Source: Isoetes taiwanensis
Taxonomy: Eukaryota > Streptophyta > Lycopodiopsida > Isoetales > Isoetaceae
DNA: 64,000 bases
NCBI GenBank assembly: GCA_021234155.1
Contig: JAJEKV010000001.1
Coordinates: 36,750,826 to 36,814,825 of the forward strand
Reading direction: 5' to 3'
Positions within the stretch are counted from its first letter, which is position 1, and every line of letters begins with the position of its first letter. Below the pieces are notes generated by a model. The model saw only the letters and a list, made by a program, of their open reading frames with translations, did no database searches and was not told where the DNA came from. Below, in pieces: positions 5,639-53,125 of the stretch. The translations under genes and the position numbers were made by a program.

Positions 5639-6540
5639 TCTATATCTAGTATCTAGTAATAAAAAAAGCAAAATGTAGTTTGTGCAGAGCATCTCGGCCG
5701 TCAATTTCTTTTCCCACAACTTTCATTTTGGACCGTCAGATCATGACTATTCTTATTCTAACCTCTATGTTTTGGGATAATCTGTGCGCAGTTTGAGCCG
5801 TCGATTTTTTTTATTTTATTTTGGTTCGTTGGATTTTCGGTTTCAATTTTGTTTGATGCGGTGTTCCCTCTCCTGCTTCAGGGTCTTCGAAATTGGTTCT
5901 TCCAGTGACATCCTGGGTATGCAATTTATGGAGCCCGGCAGCGGTGATATAGCAACGCAAAGATTCACCTCGGTCTATCTTCATGTGGCAAGGGTTTTGT
6001 CTACAAATCTGTTTGGCCGCAAAAGAAATGGCGGTCTTTGAGATCTTGAATCAAGCCGGTTCTGGGCGCTCTATGGATAGGAGCTTTATTGTTCAAGCTA
6101 TCAATTTCCGATCTTGGAAAAATCAGCTCTGAAGCTGTAGATTACAGATTTGCATTGTCAATTTCAGCCAGGTTAGGAAAGACTCATTTTTTTGTTGATT
6201 TAGTTAGAGGGCAGTCCTTATCTTTGCGCAAATCGGTATGGATTTTATGCCCTACTTCAGTGCCTTGCGCTGCTCAAGCTAACCTAGCTCCCAATCAAAT
6301 GTGCCATTGCTCTTTTTTTTAATTAGTATGATGGCTTTTACTTTATTTCTCTTTAAGTTTGCTGTTTGGATTAAGTCCTTAGCAATTAGAGGCTGTTGTC
6401 CATGTATGAACTTCAATATGGGAGTACCCATGTAATGGTTTATAACAATTCATATACAGGGGATGCATGTGAGCCATAGCCCTGCATTGCATGCTACTGT
6501 AGAGTTAACGTCAGATGAAATGCATCAATGTACCATAAGT

Positions 6541-7101
6541 TTTAGGTTTTATGGCAGTTAAATCACAATCCATCTTGCATTTGGAACATTTCCTTGGTTG
6601 CATGTCTACCATGGTGTTTTTTTGCAACTCATATTCTTGCTGTGTTGTAATTGCAGATTATTGTTAGCACACAAATACATCATCAAGGTTAGGGAGCAGT
6701 GACTCTAGAGCAAATACTATTCAAGGCCTTTAAGTTGGAAGAGTTTTTTGCATACAAAGTGCGGAGGAGATTGCATAGTGAAGGTATTGTTCTACCGTTG
6801 CTCCAAACCTTTAGCCTACGTTTTAGGTTTTATGGCAGTTAAATCACAATCCATCTTGCATTTGGAACATTTCTTTAGTTGCATGTCTACCATGGTGTTT
6901 TTTGCAACTCATATTCTTGCTGTGTTGTAATTGCAGATTATTGTTAACACACAAATACATCATCAAGGTTAGGCAGCAGTGACTCTAGAGCAAATACTAT
7001 TCAAGGCCTTTAAGTTGGAAGAGTTTTTTGCATACACAGTGCGGAGGAGATTGCATAGTGAAGGTATTGTTCTACCATTGCTCCAAACCTTTAGCCCTAC
7101 G
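6541..7101 (+). repeat. 281-bp tandem duplication with an exon-like core
   Basis: Unit 1 (6541-6821) and unit 2 (6822-7101) are nearly identical, with a period of 281. Each begins TTTAGGTTTTATGGCAGTTA and contains an acceptor-like TTGTAATTGCAG followed by about 130 bases ending GCATAGTGAAG|GTATTG. An exon with its flanking intron therefore appears twice. The frame of the exon-like block is interrupted by TAG. Confidence 0.8.
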
Positions 7102-14229: not shown

Positions 14230-15090
14230 TCAATGTGCCACCCAATCTTTTACCTTGTTATTCTTAGTGAGGTTCGACAAAGGGGATGCCCACTTAGCGA
14301 AGTCCTTTACAAATTTGCGGTAGTAGCCTGTTAAGCCAAGAAAGCTTCTCACTTCAGAGATATTCTTTGGTGCTGGCCAATCCACTATGACTTCTATTTT
14401 TGCTGGGTCTGTTGAGATTCCCTCTGTTGTGACCACATGCCCCATATATTCCACTCTACCTGTTGCAAAGTGAGATTTTAAAAGTTTACTATATAAACGA
14501 TGTCGTCTTAGCTTTTCTAAAGCTCTCCTCAAATGTACGACATGTTCTTCCATAGACTTGTTAGAGATTAGAATGTCATCGAAAAATATGATGACAAACT
14601 CGTCCAAAAAGTCCCTGAAGTTGTTATTCATCAGGCGCATAAATGTTGCTGGGGCATTTAATAGACCAAAGGGCATGACTGTGAACTCGTAATGCCCATA
14701 CCACATTCTAAAGGCGGTCTTATGAATATCCTCCTCCTTGATTTTTATTTGATGGTAGCCAGACCTTAAATCAATCTTGAAAAAGAACTTTGCTCCTTGG
14801 AGCTGGTCCATTAGATATCCGCTCTTGGCAATGCATATTTGTTCTTTATCATTTGCTTGTTGAACTGACGATAATCAATGCACATCCTTAGACTTTCGTC
14901 TTTTTTCTTCACGAAGAGAAGGTGATACACTTGGCCTAATGAACCCAAGGTCTAATAATTCCTGCAGTTGCTTCTTGAGCTCAGCCAGATCAGATGTGCT
15001 CATCCTATAGGGAACTTTACTAGTTGGTTTTGCATCTAATGCAAGAGTGATTTTGCATTCTACACCTCTATAAGGCAGTAATTCTCGGAT
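14230..15090 (-). pseudogene. Ty3/gypsy reverse transcriptase
   Basis: A 193-codon minus-strand frame carries FKIDLRSGYHQIKI, FRMWYGHYEFTVMPFGLLNA, and VIIFFDDILI (the catalytic box, FFDD where YxDD is usual), then VRSFLGLTGYYRKFV. Upstream on the same strand [16 protein letters not shown] and [20 protein letters not shown] continue the domain, with stops around 14830-14890. The element is cut off at 15090 by the A-tail of a LINE. Confidence 0.92.
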
Positions 15091-20899: not shown

Positions 20900-21650
20900 A
20901 TCTAGGCGGTAAAATTATTGTATTTGACGGCTAGTATGCGAGCGTGGCACATAATATTTACGGAAAGCCTTGCTGAAGGTTTTGAATCTGCAATTGTTTC
21001 TCCTTAGCCTATTTGAATTTGGATATCCCTTCCACCATATGTGCGCTGGCCCTATCAATTTGGTTGTTGCTACCTTGCCAATATCTCTGTCCTTCATGCC
21101 ATATAAATTGCCAAATTCTTCCATCTCATCTAATCAGGCTTCAGCTTCCATGCCTGATCTGTCTTTCCCTGCAAATTGTCCGAGCTTGTTGTTTTCTAGA
21201 CATTGGTCATTGCACTGTCTATTTTCTTTTGATAATCCTCTGTTCTACGATGCTTATTCCTGCCATGTGAGCTGTCCGAGCTGCTGTCAGAGTTACTATT
21301 TGAGCTACTATCTGAGCTACCATTCAAGCTTGAACTCGAAGAGGTTTGATATCTTCTGGTCCTTCTTTCTCTCTTGTTGTGTCCGAATGACTGTGGGCTG
21401 GGTTGTAGTTCTGGCTGATTGTTGGGTTGGTGTTCCTGCTCCTGAGGAGATGGCTGTTGTGGCCCATACTCCTCCTGTTGAATGAGTGGGGTGACAATCT
21501 GTACACTAGGTGCCTATTTATCTGCGCTTGTGTCATCTCTAACTCTTGTGGTTCTTGGCCGAAAAGATTTCTTGGCACCCAGTTTGAGGCTTGGCCTTGA
21601 CTAACCTGGTTCTGCGAAGGTGTCATGAAGTTTCTAGCTGCAAACATTAA
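20900..21650 (-). pseudogene. Ty3/gypsy gag relic, copy A
   Basis: The minus strand has MEEFGNLYGMKDRDIGKVAT and AHIWWKGYPN, a retrotransposon gag core (the AxxWW motif). Upstream at 21324-21647 is a Q- and N-rich frame beginning MFAARNFMTPSQNQVSQGQA. Frames are broken between these parts. Confidence 0.75.
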
Positions 21651-24439: not shown

Positions 24440-27400
24440 CTCAAGGTCAAGCACGTGCTTAACATTCAAATTTATCCCCTTCAAGGCACGTGATAACCAT
24501 TCAAATTTATCCTACCCAAAGTATGTTTTAGCATTTGAATTAAAGGTAAAACGTCAGGCATGTGGGCACCGTTTGAATTAAAGATGAACGTAACGTGGGT
24601 TTTCCTTGCTAGCTTCAAATTCTCATTTTAGCTATTTTTTATCCAATTAATGAATTGGTGCTTAACAGCCAGTCACATTGAGCTATGCACTTTGTCCACC
24701 AGTTTATCTGAAAACCCTAGATGGATCATGGCTTTGTGGAGGAACCCCCAGTCAATTGTGTCAAACACCTTCTTGAAGTCCAATTGTGTCAAACGCCCTC
24801 TTGTAATTCTCGAATTTATCCGGAAATAGGTCATGAAATTCTTTAATTAACTTGGCAATTGCCTTAGGTAACTGCTTTGAATTTGCATCCTCCTCCTTAT
24901 TCTTTTAGTCTGGATCAATGGCTTCTAGCCTAAGGATATAATCAACCTCATCCTTACTGATGCATTTACACAATTGCTTTAATGACATGCACTGCATTAT
25001 TGAGGCAATTTTTTTACCTTTGGCCAAAAAACGTTTGCTATTGCGCGTCATGATTGATATCTCGTGTTTATCACAATCGATCATTGCCCGGAGGATTCAC
25101 ACAGAAGACTCGTATAAACCTAGTGAGTATGTGAAGGGGATTTTTTCTCGATGTTTTTGTACATATACTAGGGGTTTAAATCCCCCTCTTACTGACATTC
25201 TAGTGTATTTTCTCCACGGAAGGGGTGTTTTTCCAACACTTTTACATACGTCTATAGGGGTGTTTCTTCTCACCTTAAGCGCACAGGTGGCATATGCTCA
25301 TATGATAAAGGTGAATCTCCCGGGTATCACTACTTTAGCTGCCTTTAAGAATTCCATGCGGACCATGAGATCATATTTCTAATATCCATGACTTCAGCCC
25401 CTATGTTTAGATTTGCCTCGCTCAATGTTATATCAAACTTCACTCTTTTTCCTTTCGTATGGCGCATTGCCCCAGTTGCCATGCTCACTGGTCTGGTTTA
25501 GACTTGAGGGTCTTTATTTTGAGCAGCGCTGCCATCCTAGAAGATGGAAAATTGTGGGAGCTCCATGTATCTATTAGGACTAGATAGGGTTTATCATCTA
25601 TAATGCCCTCTGCTGAAATGACAATGGACTGACTCTCCACATTTTCCGTTTCTATGGCCGCACAAATTCTACACTCACCTTTAATGAAATCTTGGGCCTC
25701 CTCCTTGTTGATATCTATTTCTGCTGGGGAATCCCATCCTTCAAGATTTGCCATAGTTGCTTGTATGACAAAAGGGCACTTATGAGTGCGATGATCCAGT
25801 TGAAACACCTGAAGCACAACTTTTTCTTTATACATTCGTCCCTCTTCTCTTTAGGTATGTTATTCAAAAATTGCTCCACCGACTTACCCGCTGAGGGACC
25901 TGCTGTATAAGGTTCCTTAAAGGGTGTCTTTTTGTCATTTTTACCCTGATACTATTGTGTTCTTTTCTGTGCAGGGGTTGGCGCTCTTTGGTTGAAGCTG
26001 CCTATTGCTTTCCCTTTGTCGTAATACGACTGTCTCTGCGCCGGGTTTTGCGATGTTTGGCCTTATCTTCTGCTTCCCCTGTTGTCCTAGGGTTTATTGC
26101 ACGCACTAGCCTTTTGATGTTGCTATTAATCCCCTCTATATAACTATCCACTGCCTGCCTTTTTCATATTCTAGGCACGTTCAAACGTAGCCTCATAAAC
26201 TCCTCTGTGTACTTGGCTACAAACAGATTCCCCTGATCTAGGCGGTAAAATTATTGTATTTGACGGCTAGTATGCGAGCGTGGCACATAATATTTACGGA
26301 AAGCCTTGCTGAAGGTTTTGAATCTGCAATTGTTTCTCCTTAGCCTATTTGAATTTGGATATCCCTTCCACCATATGTGCGCTGGCCCTATCAATTTGGT
26401 TGTTGCTACCTTGCCAATATCTCCGTCCTTCATGCCATATAAATTGCCAAATTCTTCCATCTCATCTAATCAGGCTTCAGCTTCCATGCCTGATCTGTCT
26501 TTCCCTGCAAATTGTCCGAGCTTGTTGTTTTCTAGACATTGGTCATTGCACTGTCTATTTTCTTTTGATAATCCTATGTTCTACGATGCTTATTCCTGCC
26601 ATGTGAGCTGTCTGAGCTGCTGTCAGAGTTACTATTTGAGCTACTATCTGAGCTACCATTCAAGCTTGAACTCGAAGAGGTTTGATATCTTCTGGTCCTT
26701 CTTTCTCTCTTGTTGTGTCCGAATGACTGTGGGCTGGGTTGTAGTTCTGGCTGATTGTTGGGTTGGTGTTCCTGCTCCTGAGGAGATGGCTGTTGGGGCC
26801 CATACTCCTCCTGTTGAATGAGTGGGGTGAGAATCTGTATACTAGGTGCCTATTTATCTGCGCTTGTGTCATCTCTAACTCTTGTGGTTCTTGGCCGAAA
26901 AGATTTCTTGGCACCCAGTTTGAGGCTTGGCCTTGACTAACCTGGTTCTGCGAAGATGTCATGAAGTTTCTAGCTGCAAACATTAATCACAAATATCCGT
27001 TATGCACTATGGTTACTATGGTGTTATTGCTATTGTCTCCTCCTCATCTGGAAGATCTTGGTGTGCATCCGACGCTTGATAAAATCATATGCTTGTATGT
27101 CAGTGATGTTCTTGTTGTGTAGGCCTCCTTTTCAGCTATTTCCCTTGGAAGGTTCTTGCTCTGAATAGTCGATGAAGTCATCGTTATAAGCATCAATGAT
27201 GACAAATAGGAGTTCATCCAAGCAGAGACCTTGATCAATACAGTATGGTAGGTGTAAGATATCATCTGCGAAAAGGTACTTCTCCTCTTCGATAATAATT
27301 GGCGTAAGAGATGTGATTCTAACTGGGGGAGTTGTTGCCTTACTTGGGAGGTCCTCTGTGGTCTCGATGTATTTCTCCAACTGCTTGGTTAATCAGGATT

Positions 27401-44719: not shown

Positions 44720-47700
44720 TTATTGATCAGCCAAGATCAATGACCAAATAATCAAGACATGAGACAAGAAAATGAAGATTCCCGCTTGGATGAGGAAACG
44801 TGGATTATCCCGGATATGAGCAGACGTAACAGCCCTGTTCCTCAAAGACCATAAGATGATTTCAGAATCTACCAAACACAAATCTCGTGTACACCGTTGA
44901 AAAATGAAATAAGTACCTAGCAATCTTCTGAGCTGCTTTTTGGAAAGGCGAGCTTTGAATGAACACTACCCCAGGTCCAGTTAGGCGAAGGTTAAAAGAG
45001 TTTTCAACCTGCATACAAGAAAACATAGTACTTACTCTGAATAAGAACTACCTTACTTGCTATTTCAGCCTGGATGACTATTGGAAGGAAATACTCATGC
45101 AAACACATTCCATGTAAAGTAAGCAGAAGGTAACATACCCCAAAAAGTGCACGTCTTAGTGTTACTGATGGCTTAACCTCATAATCTACAGAGCTTGTCA
45201 ATGCAAGCACACATGCAACATCAACCACTATGACCTCCCCTTGAGCCAAATGCTTCTGCAGAACTAGATCCATAAAGAAGTAAGGTTAGCAGGCAAGGCT
45301 GCAGCAGGTTATTCACCTGCACCATAGCAATTTCTCATAGGAAACAAAGTGAAGGAAATAGAAAACCTACTGGATCCTCCTGCTGTGATAAAAGCTAGAC
45401 CTTGTCCAGTTAATTTTTGTGTGCCAAAGACCTGACAACATGCAACTTTATGCCATTATGCACAAAAAAAAGATAAAGGGACACGCTCGACCAACAAGAA
45501 CTTGCCTCTCCGCCAAAATAGCCTCCCCTTGTTCTTTGTGCAGGAACTGCGCCAACCGTGACATTATTAATCGAGCATAAGAAGGCATCTCGCTGGACAA
45601 AACATGAAAATGTTCAAACATGAAAATGTTAAAGATATTTATAAACTTTATGTCTACTTCCCATAAAACACCACCTGGCATATGATCTCTCCGCCAAATA
45701 TGGTCAGATCAATCTACACATGACAATAGACAAATATAGTATTTCAAAGCGTCTGATAAAATGTATGCAAAGGCTTAAACAAAACTGCCATGTACCGGAA
45801 GAATTCTAGAAAGATTTGAAGCAGCTAAACCAATGTACCCATCCTGCGAACCATAATTAATGAAGCTGTAAGCAGAACACCGAACATATTAGAGCAATTA
45901 CCAGAAAGATTCAAGAGTACATCAAAGGCTGGCAGATGGCCAAGCAATGGGCCAAAACGATCAATGCAACATAAGGATGTGAGTGAAAGGAGTAGGATCA
46001 TACTAAAACTGCCAAAAAAAATAACAAATCATCAAATTTGCGAGCATGAAAAAGTTCCATAAAGGTGCAAAATTAGTTCTTGTAAAAATGACAACTATTG
46101 TTTTGGAGCTATTGAAAACCATAAGTCAGGCACACATGCTCAGTGGTAGAGAACTTGGCATGCAAGCTGGAGATCCTGGGTCCCGTATCCAGCCTGCCCT
46201 CAGTTTCTCACATTAACAAGACTGCCTTAATAATGAAACCAGATAAGGAACCCTATGACCTAATTTCATGAGAAAGGTAATATTGCATGGCATTTCCACA
46301 CAAGCCTTCAAGAGTGGTATTTCAAAGCTTTAACCCTTGCTCATATGCAGTTTAGGATTACAGTTCCGGCATATTTTATTGACAAGTCTGGCATCACTTT
46401 ATACTTTGGGCCCGTGGCCAAGAAGACAAAAGTTTCTTAACTTCATTTGTTTTAGTTTTCTTTTCCTTTTTTTAAACAATATTTCTAGGTGGCTGCAAAT
46501 GCGCCCCTAGCTGGACATGATTGATGTATATATGGTCTCATAGACCCAAGCGGTCTTTCGTAGACGTTAATATAATCTTTCTTTATGGAGGCATCTTGAG
46601 ACCATTGGGCTGCCAATAGAGTTAAGGAACGCCATTGCCACACTGTACAAAAAGGTAAAAATTCAGCTTTCTGTTCCTCTCTATACACAATGCAATGACA
46701 CAGTTGACAGCAATATGGGGGTCAAGCAGGGCTGCCCGCTTTCCCCGACCTTATTTGGCATATACATCGATCAGCTTGAAACATGGATGGAGGAGCATGG
46801 GGGTATGGGAACGCCATTAGCAAACTGCATGATACAGTTGCTATTATATGCTGATGATATAATCATGTTTGCTAGAAATGCAAAAGAAATGCAGAGACAC
46901 CTGGATGCACTTGCTGATTTTTGCAATAAATATGGAATGTCGGTCAATCTGACTAAAACCAAAATACTAATCTTTGGTACTAAGGCAAGAAGTGATTACC
47001 ATTTTTACTATGAAGGAAAGGAGGTGGAAGTTACAAATACTTATAAATACTTAGGGCTGATCGTGGACCATAACTACGGGTGGCACAAAGCAGTAGAACA
47101 AAGAGTTGATGGTGGGTTACGCGCCCTATATGGCATGCAGAGAAAGTGCAGGAAAGCACACATAGTTGACTGGAAGCTTAAAAAAATGCTATACACTTCA
47201 TTTGTGCGGGCCGTGGTACTATATGGATGCGAAGCATGGGCACCAGGCCTATCTCAGGACATGTGGAAAAGAGTAGAAAAAATTCAAAAGAAATTCTTAT
47301 TCAGCGAATTGGGTGCTAAAATGCAAACGCCATATCCCATGCTACTAGCAGAAGCAGGCATGATGCCTTTGGAGGCTGAAGCTTTGGTGCAGACACTCAA
47401 ATACGTGAGAAAAGTACATGGATTAGGATCAGAGCAGCTACCTGCATTAGCTAAGCAACAAAGTGAACACAAAGGCTGGTATATGAGTATAAAAAAATGG
47501 TTAAACAGATGGGGAATAGACATAAAGCACATGCCGGTGGACATTGACCATATAAGAACATGGATACAGATACATGTGCAGCATAAGATGTGGCTAAACC
47601 CAGGCACGAAAATGCTGTTCTATAAGGAAAACATCAACATCAGTTTAGCAGAAGCACCACATTTGCTTGAAAGGGTATCCTACCACAAAAGACATGTGAT

Positions 47701-49512
47701 ATGTAGGATGCGATTGAGCTCCCACCACTTGGGGGTGGAGGTAGGAAGATGGGGGAAACTCCCTAGGCAACTCAGAGTATGCAAAGTTTGCGGGTCAGAT
47801 GAAATCGAGAATGAAGAACATTTAATTTTGCATTGCCCAGCATATCAAAGCATAAGACGAAGATACAAAATACAAGAAGATATTTCATTAAGTGCCTTTT
47901 TTGCACTCCCAGCAGAACTCATAGGAGGTTACTTAATAGAAGTATCCGAGATGAGAGCAGTCAGCATTAAGAACTATAAGTCATTGTTAGAGATGTATGA
48001 TGAATATGAGAGTGAGTGAGAGCTGGGGTGTACTCATGATGAGTACATCTCTCGTACTTGAAAAGTGTTGAAAAATCTATGATGTATCAAACTGCCATAT
48101 GGACCTGATGGTCTAAAAGGCGAAATAATCAACATTCTTCTTCTTCTTCTTTCTTTCTTTCTTTCTGTCCTATCATATTTATGATAGTTCAAATGAGCAT
48201 TTGAATTCAAGAAGAATAGCATGTGGATGGCTTACACATAATACCCTTCACTGTCAATTTAAAAGAATGGGCATTTTAGCGATTAAGTTGGTTGATAGCA
48301 AGAATATTACTCACATCATTGGGAGATCAGATTTCCCAAGGAACCACTGCAGAACCCCGCCCATATTCTCAACAGGAACATTAGCCTCTGCTTGTACAGA
48401 CGATGACGTATAGCATACTGAACCTGCAAAAGTTGATGAAGAAAATGGATAAATCAAGAAATGACAGATAGATAGCTGCAATAACTCCAATCGGATTATA
48501 AGAATGCTATTTGCAAGGGCAAAAAGGTTGACTTCTCTTCGATTTAGTTAGAATGGGTTAAGGCAAAGCCACTCAAAATAAAGTGTTCAGATGAAGAATT
48601 AATATGAGAAAGACACTAAAGGAAAAACAAAGGCATGGGCACCACGAAAGAACGAATAATGAACGATGCCCAAGCTCTAGAAAAAAAGGTTAACAGCACA
48701 ATGCTATAAAATAATAATCATCTCGATGATTTTCTCGTGTACTGTTAACAGAGCGATATCCACATTTTATAAGTTACCTGGCTTTGCTAGTAACTTTTCC
48801 TGGGGCCTCAACATAATCTGTATTAATTCCCACCATAAGGACAAAAGAGTTGTGCAAATATAAAAGACAAGCCAGTCATACCTGTAAGACTTGTGATTCC
48901 ACCCCAAAAATTTGAAAAGCCGTTACAGATGCTTCGGGTCCACGACCCTGCCAACCAATGATAAACAAAAATTGGCTACGTTGCCTCCAAACCAATAAGC
49001 TCAGGCACAAACCCTATGTAGGCATGCTTAATATTGGTATATCAAACGTACGAAACATTACTGTTGGTTTTCTGTAACTCTCAAAGAAACGGCAAATTCC
49101 CAGCTCATCTAATATGCTAAATTGATATTACCCTTCTGCCATTCATTTTTCCCTGAACCCTCACTTGCCAAAAATTATCCTTTTGGCATCCATTCGCCTA
49201 TGCTCCAATTTAAATCACCTTTCAAGAATTCCAATCGATGTAGAACGATAAAAAAAATGGAGGTTTAAAACCAAATTGACGAGTCCTTACAAAAATTTCC
49301 AAAAATAACATATTTCAAGTTTTCTTAAATTTTATCGGTTCTTTGTTACTAGAAACAGAATAAAACAAGCCAACAAAGAGTTAGGTTTTTTGTTAGGAGC
49401 GCTTGAGTAACTCCATATATGGGAGACAAATGTGCTTTGCAAACTGCTTAAATCAGTTTCTCACCTGATACACATATGGCTGGAAAGGTGTTGAAAGAGC
49501 TGGAGCTGCCAT
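44720..49512 (-). CDS. AIM24: AIM24-family protein, 11 exons recognised
   Basis: Minus-strand exons: 49512-49465 (MAAPALSTPFQPYVYQ), 48947-48882, 48817-48778 (MLRPQEKLLAKP), 48423-48315 (GGVLQWFLGKS), 45843-45796 (DGYIGLAASNLSRILP), 45713-45675 (IDLTIFGGEIICQ), 45592-45506 (RDAFLCSINNV), 45431-45371 (LTGQGLAFITAGGS), 45263-45139 (GEVIVVDVACVLALTSS), 45008-44917 (LTGPGVVFIQSSPF) and 44834-44720 (IRDNPRFLIQAGIFIF, TAA). Phases agree at every junction except 48315/45843, where phase 2 meets phase 0. A short exon for the usual LRNxG stretch is missing or too diverged to see. The 275 residues found are close to plant family length. Family members are beta-rich proteins tied in yeast to mitochondrial organisation; the plant role is unclear. 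The last 20 or so residues form a membrane-like helix. A LINE lies in the intron after exon 4. The seventh intron uses a GC donor. A leader intron probably ends at 49582. Confidence 0.88.
46129..46200 (+). repeat. tRNA-Ala-like sequence, probably SINE-derived
   Basis: CTCAGTGGTAGAGAAC matches a tRNA A-box, GGCATGCAAGC sits at an Ala(TGC)-like anticodon arm, and CTGGGTCCCGTATCCAG matches a degenerate B-box/T arm. Stems are imperfect, the 3' end does not close well and non-tRNA sequence follows, so a decayed tRNA or SINE head is likelier than a working gene. It lies inside an AIM24 intron. Confidence 0.5.
46515..48172 (+). mobile_element. LINE, 5'-truncated, with intact 3' frame
   Basis: A 434-codon frame (46715-48019) has GVKQGCPLSPTLFGIYIDQL, LLLYADDIIMFARNAKEMQR (YADD box), SVNLTKTKILIFG, the thumb region with VLYGCEAWAP, and a zinc-binding end CKVCGSDEIENEEHLILHCP. 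Upstream, in another frame, LRRHLETIGLPIELRNAIAT-type wording (46580-46690) continues the RT; block A and the endonuclease are lost. The element ends in an ATTCTTCTTC/TTTC tract at about 48133-48172. It is the best-preserved LINE here and sits antisense in an AIM24 intron. Confidence 0.9.
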
Positions 49513-50572
49513 GATCGTATTGTGCACATCAAAATTGACGATCAGAATACTGGATCCTTATTACTAGAAACCTCTCTTTCATCTGCAACAAGTAGGGTAT
49601 GTCTCTTACTAATTCCAGGGTCTAAAAAGAAGAAAACCACCAGAGATCAATGAAACCTCATATAGAATCAGAATACAAGCAATTAAAGTGATAGTGATCT
49701 GAAAACAAACAATAAGCGCTTACAAGCGATGAGAGGGACAGCGGGCAGATCACGTCAGGAAAACCCACATTACGAAATTCCAAGCCGGAAAGATGCAAAG
49801 CTCGACACCGGATCGAAGAGTGACAAGTAAAGCGATAAAAGTGGATGTTAGAGATCACGTCAGCATTTTTTTTTTTTGCTCCCTTCGTTGGGTCTCACAG
49901 CCTCTTTTTTTATCACCTAAAATTCGAGGACCATACGTTTGAAATCTAACGTATGATAACATTGTGCAGTTGTGTAAGTCTTGGTTTCGAGGTTCGATGT
50001 TTAGTTTCTTGTTTGCAAAATCCAAACCATTAGCCACTAGATAGTGATAGACGAGCACTAGGGCGTCCTTTAGTGAGAGGGAGCGAAACTGAAAGAGAAA
50101 AGAAGAGATAGAAACGGGTAGAGCCTTAAAGAAGGTGCTAAAATACTGCCAACATAAAACATCATGAATGATTAGCATCATGAATGGTTGTTTTGATTGG
50201 CAAAGTTGTGCTTATGATAGGTTTCTCCATTGAAATGACTTTTAAGGAAAAGAATATGCTTGTTGACACATGTCCATATTTTCAATATAGTTGCATTTGA
50301 CAATAATGGAGATGCCTTTGTTCACCATAAGCTGTCCCAGTTTGTGAAACCGTATATTTATGACATATGGTTTGAATGGTTAAAGTTAGGTATTGTATGA
50401 AAGTTAGTATGGAAATAGGGCAAATTGGTTCGCTGTATTTCTGGAGTCTGCGGGATGTGGGCAAGCAGGTCGGATGCATGGTTTGATGCAGGCGCTATCT
50501 TTGGAAGGTGCCTCTTTCTGTTCCTGGCAAGCTGGAAGCGGATAAGATGGGGAATCCGGCCCTCTTATAGTC
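49513..50572. other. AIM24 promoter side; otherwise no gene
   Basis: On the minus strand a CTTGTTGCAG acceptor (near 49582) suggests a leader intron for the AIM24-like gene. The 5' UTR after it holds a short upstream ATG frame of 17 codons. The stretch 49868-50572 has no recognisable gene and borders the Replitron-like locus. Confidence 0.4.
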
Positions 50573-50579
50573 TATAAAT
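50573..50579 (+). promoter_or_regulatory. TATA box before the HUH gene
   Basis: TATAAAT lies 85 bases before the ATG at 50664, at a spacing that allows a start about 30 bases downstream. No second element was recognised. Confidence 0.45.
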
Positions 50580-50663
50580 CCTGAGCTTGGAGCCGGCTGC
50601 GTACCTAACCAGGTGAGCTTCAGATTTCCTTGTGTTTTTCCCTCTTGTCTTTGCTTTGTTTTC

Positions 50664-51676
50664 ATGAGGAGGAATGCTAGGAGAGCAGGGCGGGCAGCCA
50701 GGAATGGGCAGCCAGACTCTTCTTCTGGGAGGTCTGGTGTGGAGGCATGCAGAAATGCTGTTGAGGATGAAGGCATAGGCCTCATAGACGTGAGTGTGAC
50801 ACTGGGTGTGGCAGGCATGGATGCACCCCCAGAGTTCTATGACATGCTCCTTAATTTCTGTGAGAAGGACTGTGTTTCAGGTGTTGTTGCAGCGGAGAGG
50901 GGCAGTGACTTAGATCACCTGCATTACCAGTGTGTCTTTAGGCTTGCTCTGAAGTCCTCTAGAGTTGTGAATTTGGCCATGAAGCGGAGGTTTGGGTGGG
51001 GAGGTAAGAAGCCTGTGGGGGTTGTTCTTGTTTGTAAGGCGTTAAAGAATAGCAGGCTCCATTGTTTCGAGGGGCTAATAGGGTATTGCATGAAGGATAT
51101 GGGGAAGCCACACTTCAAGCTGCACACAAAGAATGTGTCTGAGCGCCAGTTGAAGATGGGCAAGGATCTGTACTTGCTCTATGGTGCAGGGGACATCAAT
51201 CATGTGGTAGTTTTGGACAACATGAACCTCTTGGGAAGAGCCCTTCATTTTGTGAACTATCATGGGGGAAGGCAGCTGAGTTCTAGCCTTGTGTACACAG
51301 TCACTAGGATGCTTAGAACCGTAAATTGCGTGTTGTCTACTACTATTTGGATCCTTCCTTCTAACACGCTTTTATATCTGAGCATAGAGTGAATGCCGCC
51401 TGGCACCTGACACTAAACCCCAAAGTCGCATTGCCAAGTGATGTGAGGTGTGTGCTGTATGGCATCCCGGCTGGGATGGAACCCATTCAGCGGATTGGGA
51501 AGGGTAGAAAACGATATTGGGATGAGGCTGCCACGCCTGGAGATATGGATGAGAACTTCGTGGAAGGGGAGGATGATGAATTGGGCCTCAGCCAGCCGTG
51601 GACATGCCTGGGACTGATTTCATACCTCTTGACACCACGGATTACACAATGGCAATTGGTTGACCTGTGCTTGTAG
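50664..51676 (+). pseudogene. Rep-type HUH endonuclease (Replitron-like transposase), frameshifted
   Basis: From ATG 50664 the frame runs 242 codons. It starts with an Arg-rich tail (MRRNARRAGRAARN). Motif 1-like VSVTLGVAG is at residues 43-51, then AERG (77-80), the metal-binding HUH motif HLHYQCVF (H85, H87) and the catalytic-Tyr motif YCMKD (Y141, K144) followed by GKPHFKLHTKNVSERQLKMG. Near 51360 one base is gained or lost. The next frame (to 51676) continues AFISEHRVNAAWHLTLNP and DVRCVLYG, a C-terminal block that to my knowledge follows this domain in Replitron-type proteins. No helicase follows, unlike Helitrons. Replitrons are eukaryotic transposons with a single-Tyr HUH nuclease. Family placement is from memory; the HUH and YxxK motifs are seen directly. 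Confidence 0.72.
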
Positions 51677-51805
51677 GGGGCTGCCTGCAGGTTTTGTACA
51701 TATGTTTCTCTTTGTTTTGATGTTGCATCTTTGTTTGCAGTTATTTCTTTATGCCTGGACTAGAGATGGAACGTGGTAATGGGACTGTAGGGATGGAGAT
51801 TGGGA

Positions 51806-52288
51806 ATGGGTTGCTTTGCTACAAAGCAGCCCGTTGGAGTTGTCAAGATGAGGCCAACTGTCGGGGATGGCGTGATTAACATTGACAGTGATGAAGAGGC
51901 CTCATCTTTCCCTCCTCACAGGCCTGCTGCTCCCGGGCCAAGTATCCATGGTGTAATTCATAATGCAAAGCCCTCTCCTGTTGCATTCTTTCCGAACGGG
52001 GAGCGTGTCCAGGTTGCTTTGGAAGTGATCTCAAGCATTGTTAACATTAATACTCTTGCCGAGTCTGTGGCAGCCTCTGTCGGATTGTTTAGGATGCAGC
52101 TTGGCCGCCTGTTTGCAGCATTGGAGGAGGCCGTTTCCCACATGGAGTGGGAAGAGGTGGAGGTCACTAGAGATGAGCGCCAGCATATGCGGGCGCATAT
52201 GAATCTGGCCCGGGCTCTTCTTATCAGGGAATTGCGGCGAATTGACACTTTGGCCAGGCGCCACAATGCTGTTATGAACAACAACTAG
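51806..52288 (+). CDS. Unrecognised ORF downstream of the HUH gene
   Basis: An ATG at 51806 opens 160 codons beginning MGCFATKQPVGVVKMRPTVG (an inner ATG is at 51851). An acidic VINIDSDEEASSF patch and a Pro-rich PPHRPAAPGPS segment follow, then an alpha-helical second half (ESVAASVGLFRMQLGRLFAA, ARALLIRELRRIDTLARRHN) ending MNNN. The helical part could form a coiled coil or oligomerise. IDSDEE resembles a SUMO-interaction motif. It is on the same strand, 130 bases after the HUH frame, with similar base composition, so it may be a second element protein or a last exon. No homolog comes to mind. The frame is intact, unlike its neighbour. Confidence 0.55.
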   Translation: MGCFATKQPVGVVKMRPTVGDGVINIDSDEEASSFPPHRPAAPGPSIHGVIHNAKPSPVAFFPNGERVQVALEVISSIVNINTLAESVAASVGLFRMQLGRLFAALEEAVSHMEWEEVEVTRDERQHMRAHMNLARALLIRELRRIDTLARRHNAVMNNN

Positions 52289-52537
52289 ATACTGGTATGC
52301 TTGTATGATTCTCTGCTTTGCTTTCTTTATGTGTGTGCTTTGTGTGCTACGGGTGTTATGCATCAGAAAAGGAAATAAAAAATGCAAAAGGGATGCGGAA
52401 ATGGATTGCACGTGAGAAAAAAAAGTGTGTTTCTGATTGGAAAAACCATATTGGTGTGTTTTTGTGGGTTCATATGATTGACTATGGAAAAAAGAACTGA
52501 AAAACTGAAAAAATAAAGGGAAAAGCATGGTGTGATT

Positions 52538-52584
52538 GCATGTGCATGTGCATGTGCATGTGCATGTGCATGTGCATGTGCATG
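52538..52584 (+). repeat. (CATGTG)n microsatellite
   Basis: About eight perfect hexamers directly precede a hairpin and a T-arm-like stem. It may mark the 3' end or the insertion target of the Replitron-like element. Confidence 0.9.
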
Positions 52585-52590
52585 GGAATA

Positions 52591-52663
52591 GCCCCTGCCC
52601 TTTAAGGGCGGGCAGATTGCTTGGAGCTGCGCATTGCACAGGGGGTTCGAATTCCCCAGTCTG
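52591..52663 (+). other. Bulged hairpin plus tRNA T-arm-like stem
   Basis: Bases 52591-52613 fold as GCCC-(CT bulge)-GCCCT-TTA-AGGGC-GGGC. Right after, CAGATT (52613-52618) can pair with AGTCTG (52658-52663), enclosing a 5-bp stem and 7-base loop GGGGG-TTCGAAT-TCCCC (52641-52657) that contains a Pol III B-box-like GGTTCGAATTCC. The enclosed part is too short for a tRNA. Compact end structures like this suit a HUH-nuclease substrate. Confidence 0.5.
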
Positions 52664-53125
52664 TTTCCTCATTTCACTTGTAGTTGCAGCAGCCTGGTGG
52701 ACGCAGCAGAAGGTAGGGAGTTCAGTTGGTGCAGCCCTTTTTGATGGCTGCAAACGTGTGCCTCAGGTTTGTGGTAGCAAACATAGAAAGTTTATCTTAG
52801 CCTTTCTTCTATTTCCAGATGGCTGCCTATTTCAGACCCTCTTCTAGTCTGGGGTCAATGCAATATTAATTGCTTGTGCAATGGTTGTCAAAGGCCCTAA
52901 AGAATAGGGCCAACTAAGCGTTTGACCCCATCTCTGAATGACGTGTACGGCTGCACTGCTCCTAGAGGGAATATTCGAGGGAATATTCTTGCATCCTGCG
53001 GCTGGGAATACATATTTGAGGTCAAGAAGGTGGAATTACTGTGTCAAGCTATTCCAAAGCCTTATGAAATTTATAAGGAACTTGTGCTCTCAAACCAAAG
53101 TAAGTGTGTTTGTAGATGATGTTTT
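52664..53125 (+). other. No gene; small hairpin
   Basis: GGCCCTA-AAGAA-TAGGGCC (52893-52911 region) is a perfect 7-bp stem. Short open frames at 52922-53138 have no motif. Confidence 0.4.

Follow-up and report, generated by a model that had tools for sequence, protein, structure and literature searches.

Replitrons are a class of transposons named in 2023. In its section on these elements, a review citing Craig 2023 names liverworts, mosses, lycophytes and ferns among the hosts, and it describes Helitrons as lacking target duplications (PMC10741241). The locus analysed here lies in the genome of Isoetes taiwanensis. A preliminary description, made from the DNA letters, had compared it with Replitrons, looked to fern genomes for further copies and expected a plant copy to widen the class. 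The host is a lycophyte and not a fern, and the copy does not widen the class, because land-plant groups including lycophytes already stand in the host list of that review section (PMC10741241). The basic finding is therefore a further Replitron in a host group where the class is already known.

Like Replitrons (PF21859), the Isoetes element combines an HUH profile, a single tyrosine motif, no detected helicase, a length of ∼2.7 kb and a lycophyte host with short target duplications and a possibly comparable short direct repeat at its ends. With Helitrons it shares the nature of a eukaryotic HUH endonuclease transposon. However, it differs from them by its single tyrosine motif, by the presence of target duplications and by a helicase domain that was not found. 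Compared with Replitrons as presented in the review section, the Isoetes family adds a conserved second gene, a possible nested intron and a tRNA-like module. None of these three is named for Replitrons in that section, and the passages mentioning Replitrons in PMC10741241, PMC13231165 and PMC13253262 describe neither a second gene nor an RNA module; Craig 2023 may have all three, including a description of ORF2. The conserved second gene and the tRNA-like fold may be undescribed so far, the novelty of these two and of the splice-like layout among Replitrons being uncertain.

A high-copy family and a dead copy in the window

The features discussed below are all on the forward strand of the window, by which we mean the whole stretch of 64,000 nucleotides that was analysed.

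50326-53012, +, Replitron copy (blastn against 12 fetched copies, ends compared)
50573-50578, +, TATA box, TATAAA (sequence; upstream regions compared)
50610-50618, +, donor-like splice site CAG/GTGAGC, 51 nt upstream of the Rep ATG (score 7.6)
50664-51389, +, ORF1, encoding the N-terminal portion of the Rep/HUH transposase, including H85, H87 and Y141 (PF21859, invariant residues)
51389-51676, +, ORF in which the ancestral Rep continues out of frame, the final third being out of frame again (comparison with intact copies)
51640-51663, +, relic of the Rep C-terminus DYTMAIG with its stop codon (conserved across subfamilies)
51727-51741, +, acceptor-like splice site ..TCTTTGTTTGCAG/T (score 9.7); the ancestral ORF2 ATG follows 10 nt downstream
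51751-52288, +, ORF2, with a SIM-like VINIDSDEE and a helical C-terminal domain (relatives, model, selection)
52580-52663, +, tRNA-like module, closed by a stem of 52613-52618 with 52658-52663 and carrying a T-arm-like hairpin at 52641-52657

Copies were searched for in 1,658,258,908 bases of the genome (1110 contigs). The window Rep protein gave at least 151 matches, the window included (best 150 of 3900 candidates scored), and among the matches listed the others are 52-93% identical to it. In a search with PF21859, all of the best 150 of 2165 candidates passed the cut-off. The Replitron family of Isoetes is thus large and present in high copy number.

The extent of the full-length element was read from the closest of twelve copies fetched with their flanks. 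The element had been taken to span 50573-52663, and this restriction was rejected, as full-length copies align from about 50326 to about 53012. The 5′ end is CATAAG (50326-50331), and the 3′ homology stops at ∼53012, roughly 22 nt before the 3′ end of the copy L023. The resulting length lies inside the Replitron range of 0.9-4 kb. Five short copies (C926, C908, C1038, C1057 and C945) measure 1.1-1.4 kb end to end and have the ends of the full element; they are probably non-autonomous derivatives. The TATA box reported earlier is present and is retained in most of the copies of the window subfamily shown. Because both genes carry frameshifts and the 3′ tip (∼22 nt) is lost, the window Replitron is a dead copy.

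Elsewhere in the window, two reverse-transcriptase ORFs (PF00078) at 46715-48019 (+, E = 1.2e-20) and 14230-14811 (-, E = 8.5e-26) are retroelement remnants. Two near-identical ORFs of 171 aa at 20970-21485 and 26306-26821 (+), 5.3 kb apart, mark a duplicated or repeated segment, the first of them having no Pfam match, and a tandem repeat with a period of 280 bp occupies 6539-7101 (two copies, 97% matches).

The Rep/HUH gene

The ORF at 50664-51389 matches the Pfam family PF21859, Replitron_HUH, over residues 50-170 with E = 2.9e-17 and 63.6 bits (cut-off 28.5), and no second Pfam family was found for it at E values up to 10. The best profile match is thus an HUH family above its curated cut-off, and this E value together with the copies in the same genome excludes chance as the source of the match. 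The intact relative L017 gave PF21859 as well (E = 8.7e-16) and no other Pfam family for its Rep. The Arg-rich N-terminus, the HUH motif HLHYQ and the single catalytic tyrosine motif YCMKD, all noticed in the preliminary description, are confirmed: the protein begins at the ATG at 50664 with MRRNARRAGRAARNG, and H85, H87, Y141, K144 and D145 are invariant in all 13 aligned sequences, that is, the window and 12 relatives, with the remaining loci, whose ORF1 is broken or redundant, excluded. Pfam finds no helicase in the ORFs of the window or of L017, as had been stated, and hence no protein joining Rep to a helicase as in Helitrons. A Rep/HUH protein that is not a Helitron protein is what one tyrosine motif and no helicase domain found by Pfam indicate. 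The closest resemblance is to Replitrons, as the profile, the motifs, the undetected helicase, the copy number, the short target duplications and, more tentatively, the direct repeat at the ends support.

The window Rep ORF had no match in PHROGs, and neither Rep nor ORF2 of L017 had one in NCBIfam. Searches of the PDB detected no relative among solved structures, a further one giving a single match at chance level (E = 0.39), and the single-sequence structure model of the window Rep protein had a mean pLDDT of 38.4 and no usable fold. For these reasons the putative active site (H85, H87 and Y141) is assigned by motif only.

The gene had been described as a single frame, 50664-51676. Comparison with intact copies led us to reject this, since it uncovers two frameshifts. 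The frame that opens at 50664 stops at 51390-51392; a first frameshift lies near 51370, the next part of the ancestral Rep being found within the 51389-51676 ORF, and a second one lies near 51575, so that the end of this ORF is out of frame relative to its relatives (window ..DDELGLSQPWTC.. versus ..DDEFRPQAVVDMPG..DYTMAIG in L015). In 18 of 55 pairs, those unsaturated at synonymous sites, the dN/dS of ORF1 is 0.10-0.27.

A conserved second gene

The second ORF mentioned in the preliminary description turns out to be a real gene. In the window, the ancestral ATG stands at 51751, a frameshift follows shortly after, and the frame is open from 51800 to 52288. The intact ORF2 of L017 (176 aa) gave at least 150 matches in the genome (best 150 of 1887 candidates scored); among the matches listed, identity goes down to 47%, and many lie directly 3′ of Rep matches. 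It has no Pfam family.

ORF2 was detected in all 13 diverged loci of a first set (tblastn, E up to 1e-3), six of which (L111-L116) had been chosen with a nearby ORF2 match known. The other seven of these 13 (L108-L110 and L117-L120) had been chosen from the Rep list alone, which gives 7/7. ORF2 was further detected in five of eight loci of still other lineages (E up to 1e-2). ORF2 is therefore present in 12/15 diverged loci picked without regard to it. No homologue was detected in L130, L131 and L136 (E up to 1e-2), and the small ORF at the corresponding place in L131 and L136 has no supported relatedness to ORF2 (hhalign probability 0.3). The C-terminal domain has a dN/dS of 0.04-0.25 (20 of 45 pairs, those unsaturated at synonymous sites). 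Together with the ratios for ORF1, this indicates that both Replitron genes are under selection. The Isoetes Replitron family thus has a two-gene architecture.

In the single-sequence model of the window ORF2 (mean pLDDT 56.6), two long helices are predicted, mostly at about 70-81 by blocks of ten residues. The N-terminal part carries a stretch that reads VINIDSDEE in the window and L019, VINVDSDEE in L017, VIEISDSNSD in L113, VIEISDSSNE in L114, IIVISDESED in L132 and LIVITDSSED in L134; these stretches resemble SUMO-interacting motifs (SIM). No SIM-like stretch was seen in ORF2 of L112, L115, L118 and L135. Separately, ORF1 of L108 and L117-L120, subfamilies whose ORF2 has no SIM-like motif, carries DSDDVV[VI]LEP close to its C-terminus, an inverted SIM-like stretch.

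Splice-like signals around the Rep gene

Donor and acceptor sites were scored with splice-site matrices in 21 tabled copies; two copies per side had no usable ATG, which left 19 for testing. In 13/19 copies, the 60 nt before the Rep ATG hold a donor scoring at least 7.3, and an acceptor scoring at least 9 precedes the ORF2 ATG by 2-11 nt in 16/19. In L110-L113 and L115, the donor-like site immediately precedes the Rep ATG. Donor-like sites are absent or weak in six of the 19 copies and acceptor-like sites in three. Among the 13 good donors, shuffles of the same stretch reach the score in a fraction of 0.00-0.21; this fraction is 0.00-0.12 among the 16 good acceptors and 0.10-0.97 in the remaining copies. 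What gives the signals weight is that subfamilies already saturated at synonymous sites still have them in the same position. The Rep gene may thus lie inside an optional intron (candidate 50613-51740 in the window), Rep being possibly made from unspliced RNA and ORF2 from spliced RNA.

Alternatively, both genes could be read without a splice, from a bicistronic RNA or with ORF2 under its own promoter; the splice-like signals would then be leftovers or due to chance. The modest results of the single-copy shuffle tests and the copies in which one signal is missing would agree with such a layout, whereas signals standing just before each ATG in saturated subfamilies argue against it; we regard it as a serious possibility, if a somewhat doubtful one.

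A tRNA-like module in the 3′ region

Downstream of ORF2, a module was recognized by its constant start GCATGGGAWTAGCCCC, a T-arm-like hairpin and a box-B-like GGTTCRANTCC. A T-arm with a fully paired closing stem of 6 bp is present in 14 of the 34 loci scanned (0.056 per locus in shuffles), and all 14 belong to the window subfamily or to L110-L116. Twelve distinct rows, assembled by hand, have 95.5% of their cells paired, and sliding the partner strand lowers the pairing to 32-60%. Changes on both sides affect 7/11 pairs (reached by 4/500 shuffles) and 23 cells, while the number of further pair types shows no excess (456/500 shuffles reach the count).

A strict pattern of the module occurs at 111 places in the genome and at none for the reversed control. 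Of these places, 20 diverse ones were chosen blind to their 3′ strand. At fixed spacing, the closing stem is 71% paired versus 36-57% at other spacings (permutation p = 0.005) in 22 rows, of which 21 are distinct; they comprise 16 of the 20 new places and six older rows, the other four new places having another length and the window row being absent. When the best stem near the expected place was taken, 5 or 6 of 6 pairs formed in 16/20 rows, versus 42% of swapped pairs. For the middle hairpin, compared in 32 rows of which 18 are distinct, pairing is 80% versus 15-55% when slid, with a non-significant permutation test (p = 0.20). The closing stem of the tRNA-like module, as its aligned copies indicate, covaries. 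The single-strand folding energy is unexceptional in L013 (z = -0.7) and L022 (z = -1.2) and lower in L111 (z = -2.4) and L115 (z = -3.5).

No Rfam family reached its gathering score in the window. Among five loci given to Rfam, mascRNA-menRNA (RF01684) had the top bits over the module in L013 (27.4), L022 (24.7) and L115 (22.0), none of which reaches the gathering score of 42.5 (E = 0.087, 0.44 and 2.2, respectively); L111 and L114 gave no match to it. The closing stem, small arms and T-arm are shared, a likeness of fold only. Short tmRNA fragments also score over the module. Apart from the module, positions 40-141 of L114 form a long near-perfect hairpin like mir-249, below the gathering score (34.4 versus 70 bits, E = 0.00022).

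It is known that mascRNA is excised from MALAT1 by tRNA-processing enzymes, and because of this we would guess, by analogy, at a role of the module in RNA 3′-end formation. The module could instead be a passenger, e.g. the relic of a tRNA-derived SINE acquired by an ancestor, rather than a functional part of the element. Such an origin would suit the box-B-like sequence with its constant start, the restriction to part of the lineages and the shuffle measure without excess. However, a passenger would not readily account for a closing stem that stays paired as its sequence changes, with alterations on both sides, nor for the pairing at fixed spacing in the rows selected blind to their 3′ strand, and we consider it unlikely.

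Ends and insertion junctions

Among 48 aligned left ends, most read ATAAG, some TTAAG and those of one subfamily ATATAG; the 29 right ends are mostly CCATCARCCATAA or near it. The termini (C)ATAAG.. and ..CATAA form a direct and not an inverted repeat, and these ends hold no terminal inverted repeat. The repeat (C)ATAA measures 4-5 bp versus 5-11 bp in Replitrons. As ATA stands at the junction in readable empty sites, this part of the repeat may be target sequence.

A first test for target duplications in 23 copies was not significant (p = 0.09, 0.18 and 0.47); duplications standing after filler bases escaped this narrow test. The absence of duplications was rejected, since empty sites display them, some after filler. 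Five copies could be read against empty sites:

C1038, empty site L072: duplication CTAATA, 11 extra bases
L106, empty sites L122-L125: duplication TGATA, 23 extra bases, with a mismatch to the empty sites at the following base
L099, empty sites L127-L129: duplication GCATA, 15 extra bases
C908, empty sites L057-L060: duplication ATA(A)
C1007, empty site L071: duplication ATA(A), 8 extra bases

These duplications of 3-6 bp lie inside the Replitron range of 2-8 bp. For the empty sites L072 and L071, a reading as deleted was rejected in favour of the duplications CTAATA and ATA(A). C1018 and L013 are too diverged from their empty sites for a clean reading, and C1094 has a duplication of at most about 1 bp. 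When filler was allowed in 25 copies, own flank pairs were better than swapped ones (p = 0.0046, 0.0008 and 0.013), a fourth setting being not significant (p = 0.11).

The copy L023 has a duplication of 11 bp, outside the 2-8 bp range, and a filler of 23 nt, of which 11 nt are copied from the target downstream (0/500 shuffles). Templated filler as a general rule was rejected, as L023 alone is clear among the eight fillers tested: in each of four more, a single marginal match was seen (p = 0.02-0.06, with five comparisons made), and three have none. We read the 5′ junction as precise and the 3′ junction as made by repair. L014 and L121 (the copy L106) have a similar 3′ tail just after CATAA/GATAA, so that some tails may be inherited rather than made at insertion.

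Proposed mode of transposition

A circular single-stranded DNA virus that became endogenous (geminivirus-like or with another CRESS Rep) is a very improbable source of the locus: Rep and a second gene in one unit of ∼2.7 kb, and a motif order with HLH and YxxKD like that of viral Reps, are offset by Replitron_HUH as the sole Pfam family in place of a viral Rep domain with helicase, by the high copy number, common ends, target duplications and shorter same-ended copies expected of a transposon, and by the lack of any relative among viral contigs (43 pattern matches, 0 confirmed).

We are largely confident that the window holds a dead copy of a high-copy, two-gene Replitron family with an RNA module, a probable nested intron and probable Rep-driven transposition, working as follows. 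In intact members, one gene codes for a Rep/HUH transposase with a single tyrosine and no recognisable helicase, the other for a small accessory protein that is largely helical. Through Y141, Rep would nick one strand at the 5′ (C)ATA/AG end and stay linked to the DNA; host replication or repair would make the copy, which would be pasted at an A/T-rich site. An insertion would then show a short target duplication and a precisely joined 5′ end, its 3′ end often being truncated or padded by up to about 24 bases. With the Rep gene in an optional intron, unspliced RNA would yield Rep and spliced RNA ORF2, and the tRNA-like module would act on the RNA, in 3′-end formation or stability. More tentatively, the family may represent a clade of two-gene Replitrons defined by Rep in an optional intron, a fast-changing yet covarying mascRNA-like structure as the 3′ end of the RNA, an accessory protein with a SIM and a helical hairpin, precise joining at the 5′ end and error-prone, sometimes templated repair at the 3′ end.

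Significance

The second gene and the RNA module may be what sets the Isoetes family apart from known Replitrons. At least 150 copies of the family were scored, and it also provides both genes, short copies that end like the full element, and readable empty sites. With copies and empty sites in one genome, target choice and 3′-end formation are open to comparative study. The strong selection on the second gene hints that its product may be a factor required by Rep, and the tRNA-like RNA element, should it be real, would give a plant DNA transposon an unusual means of ending its transcript.
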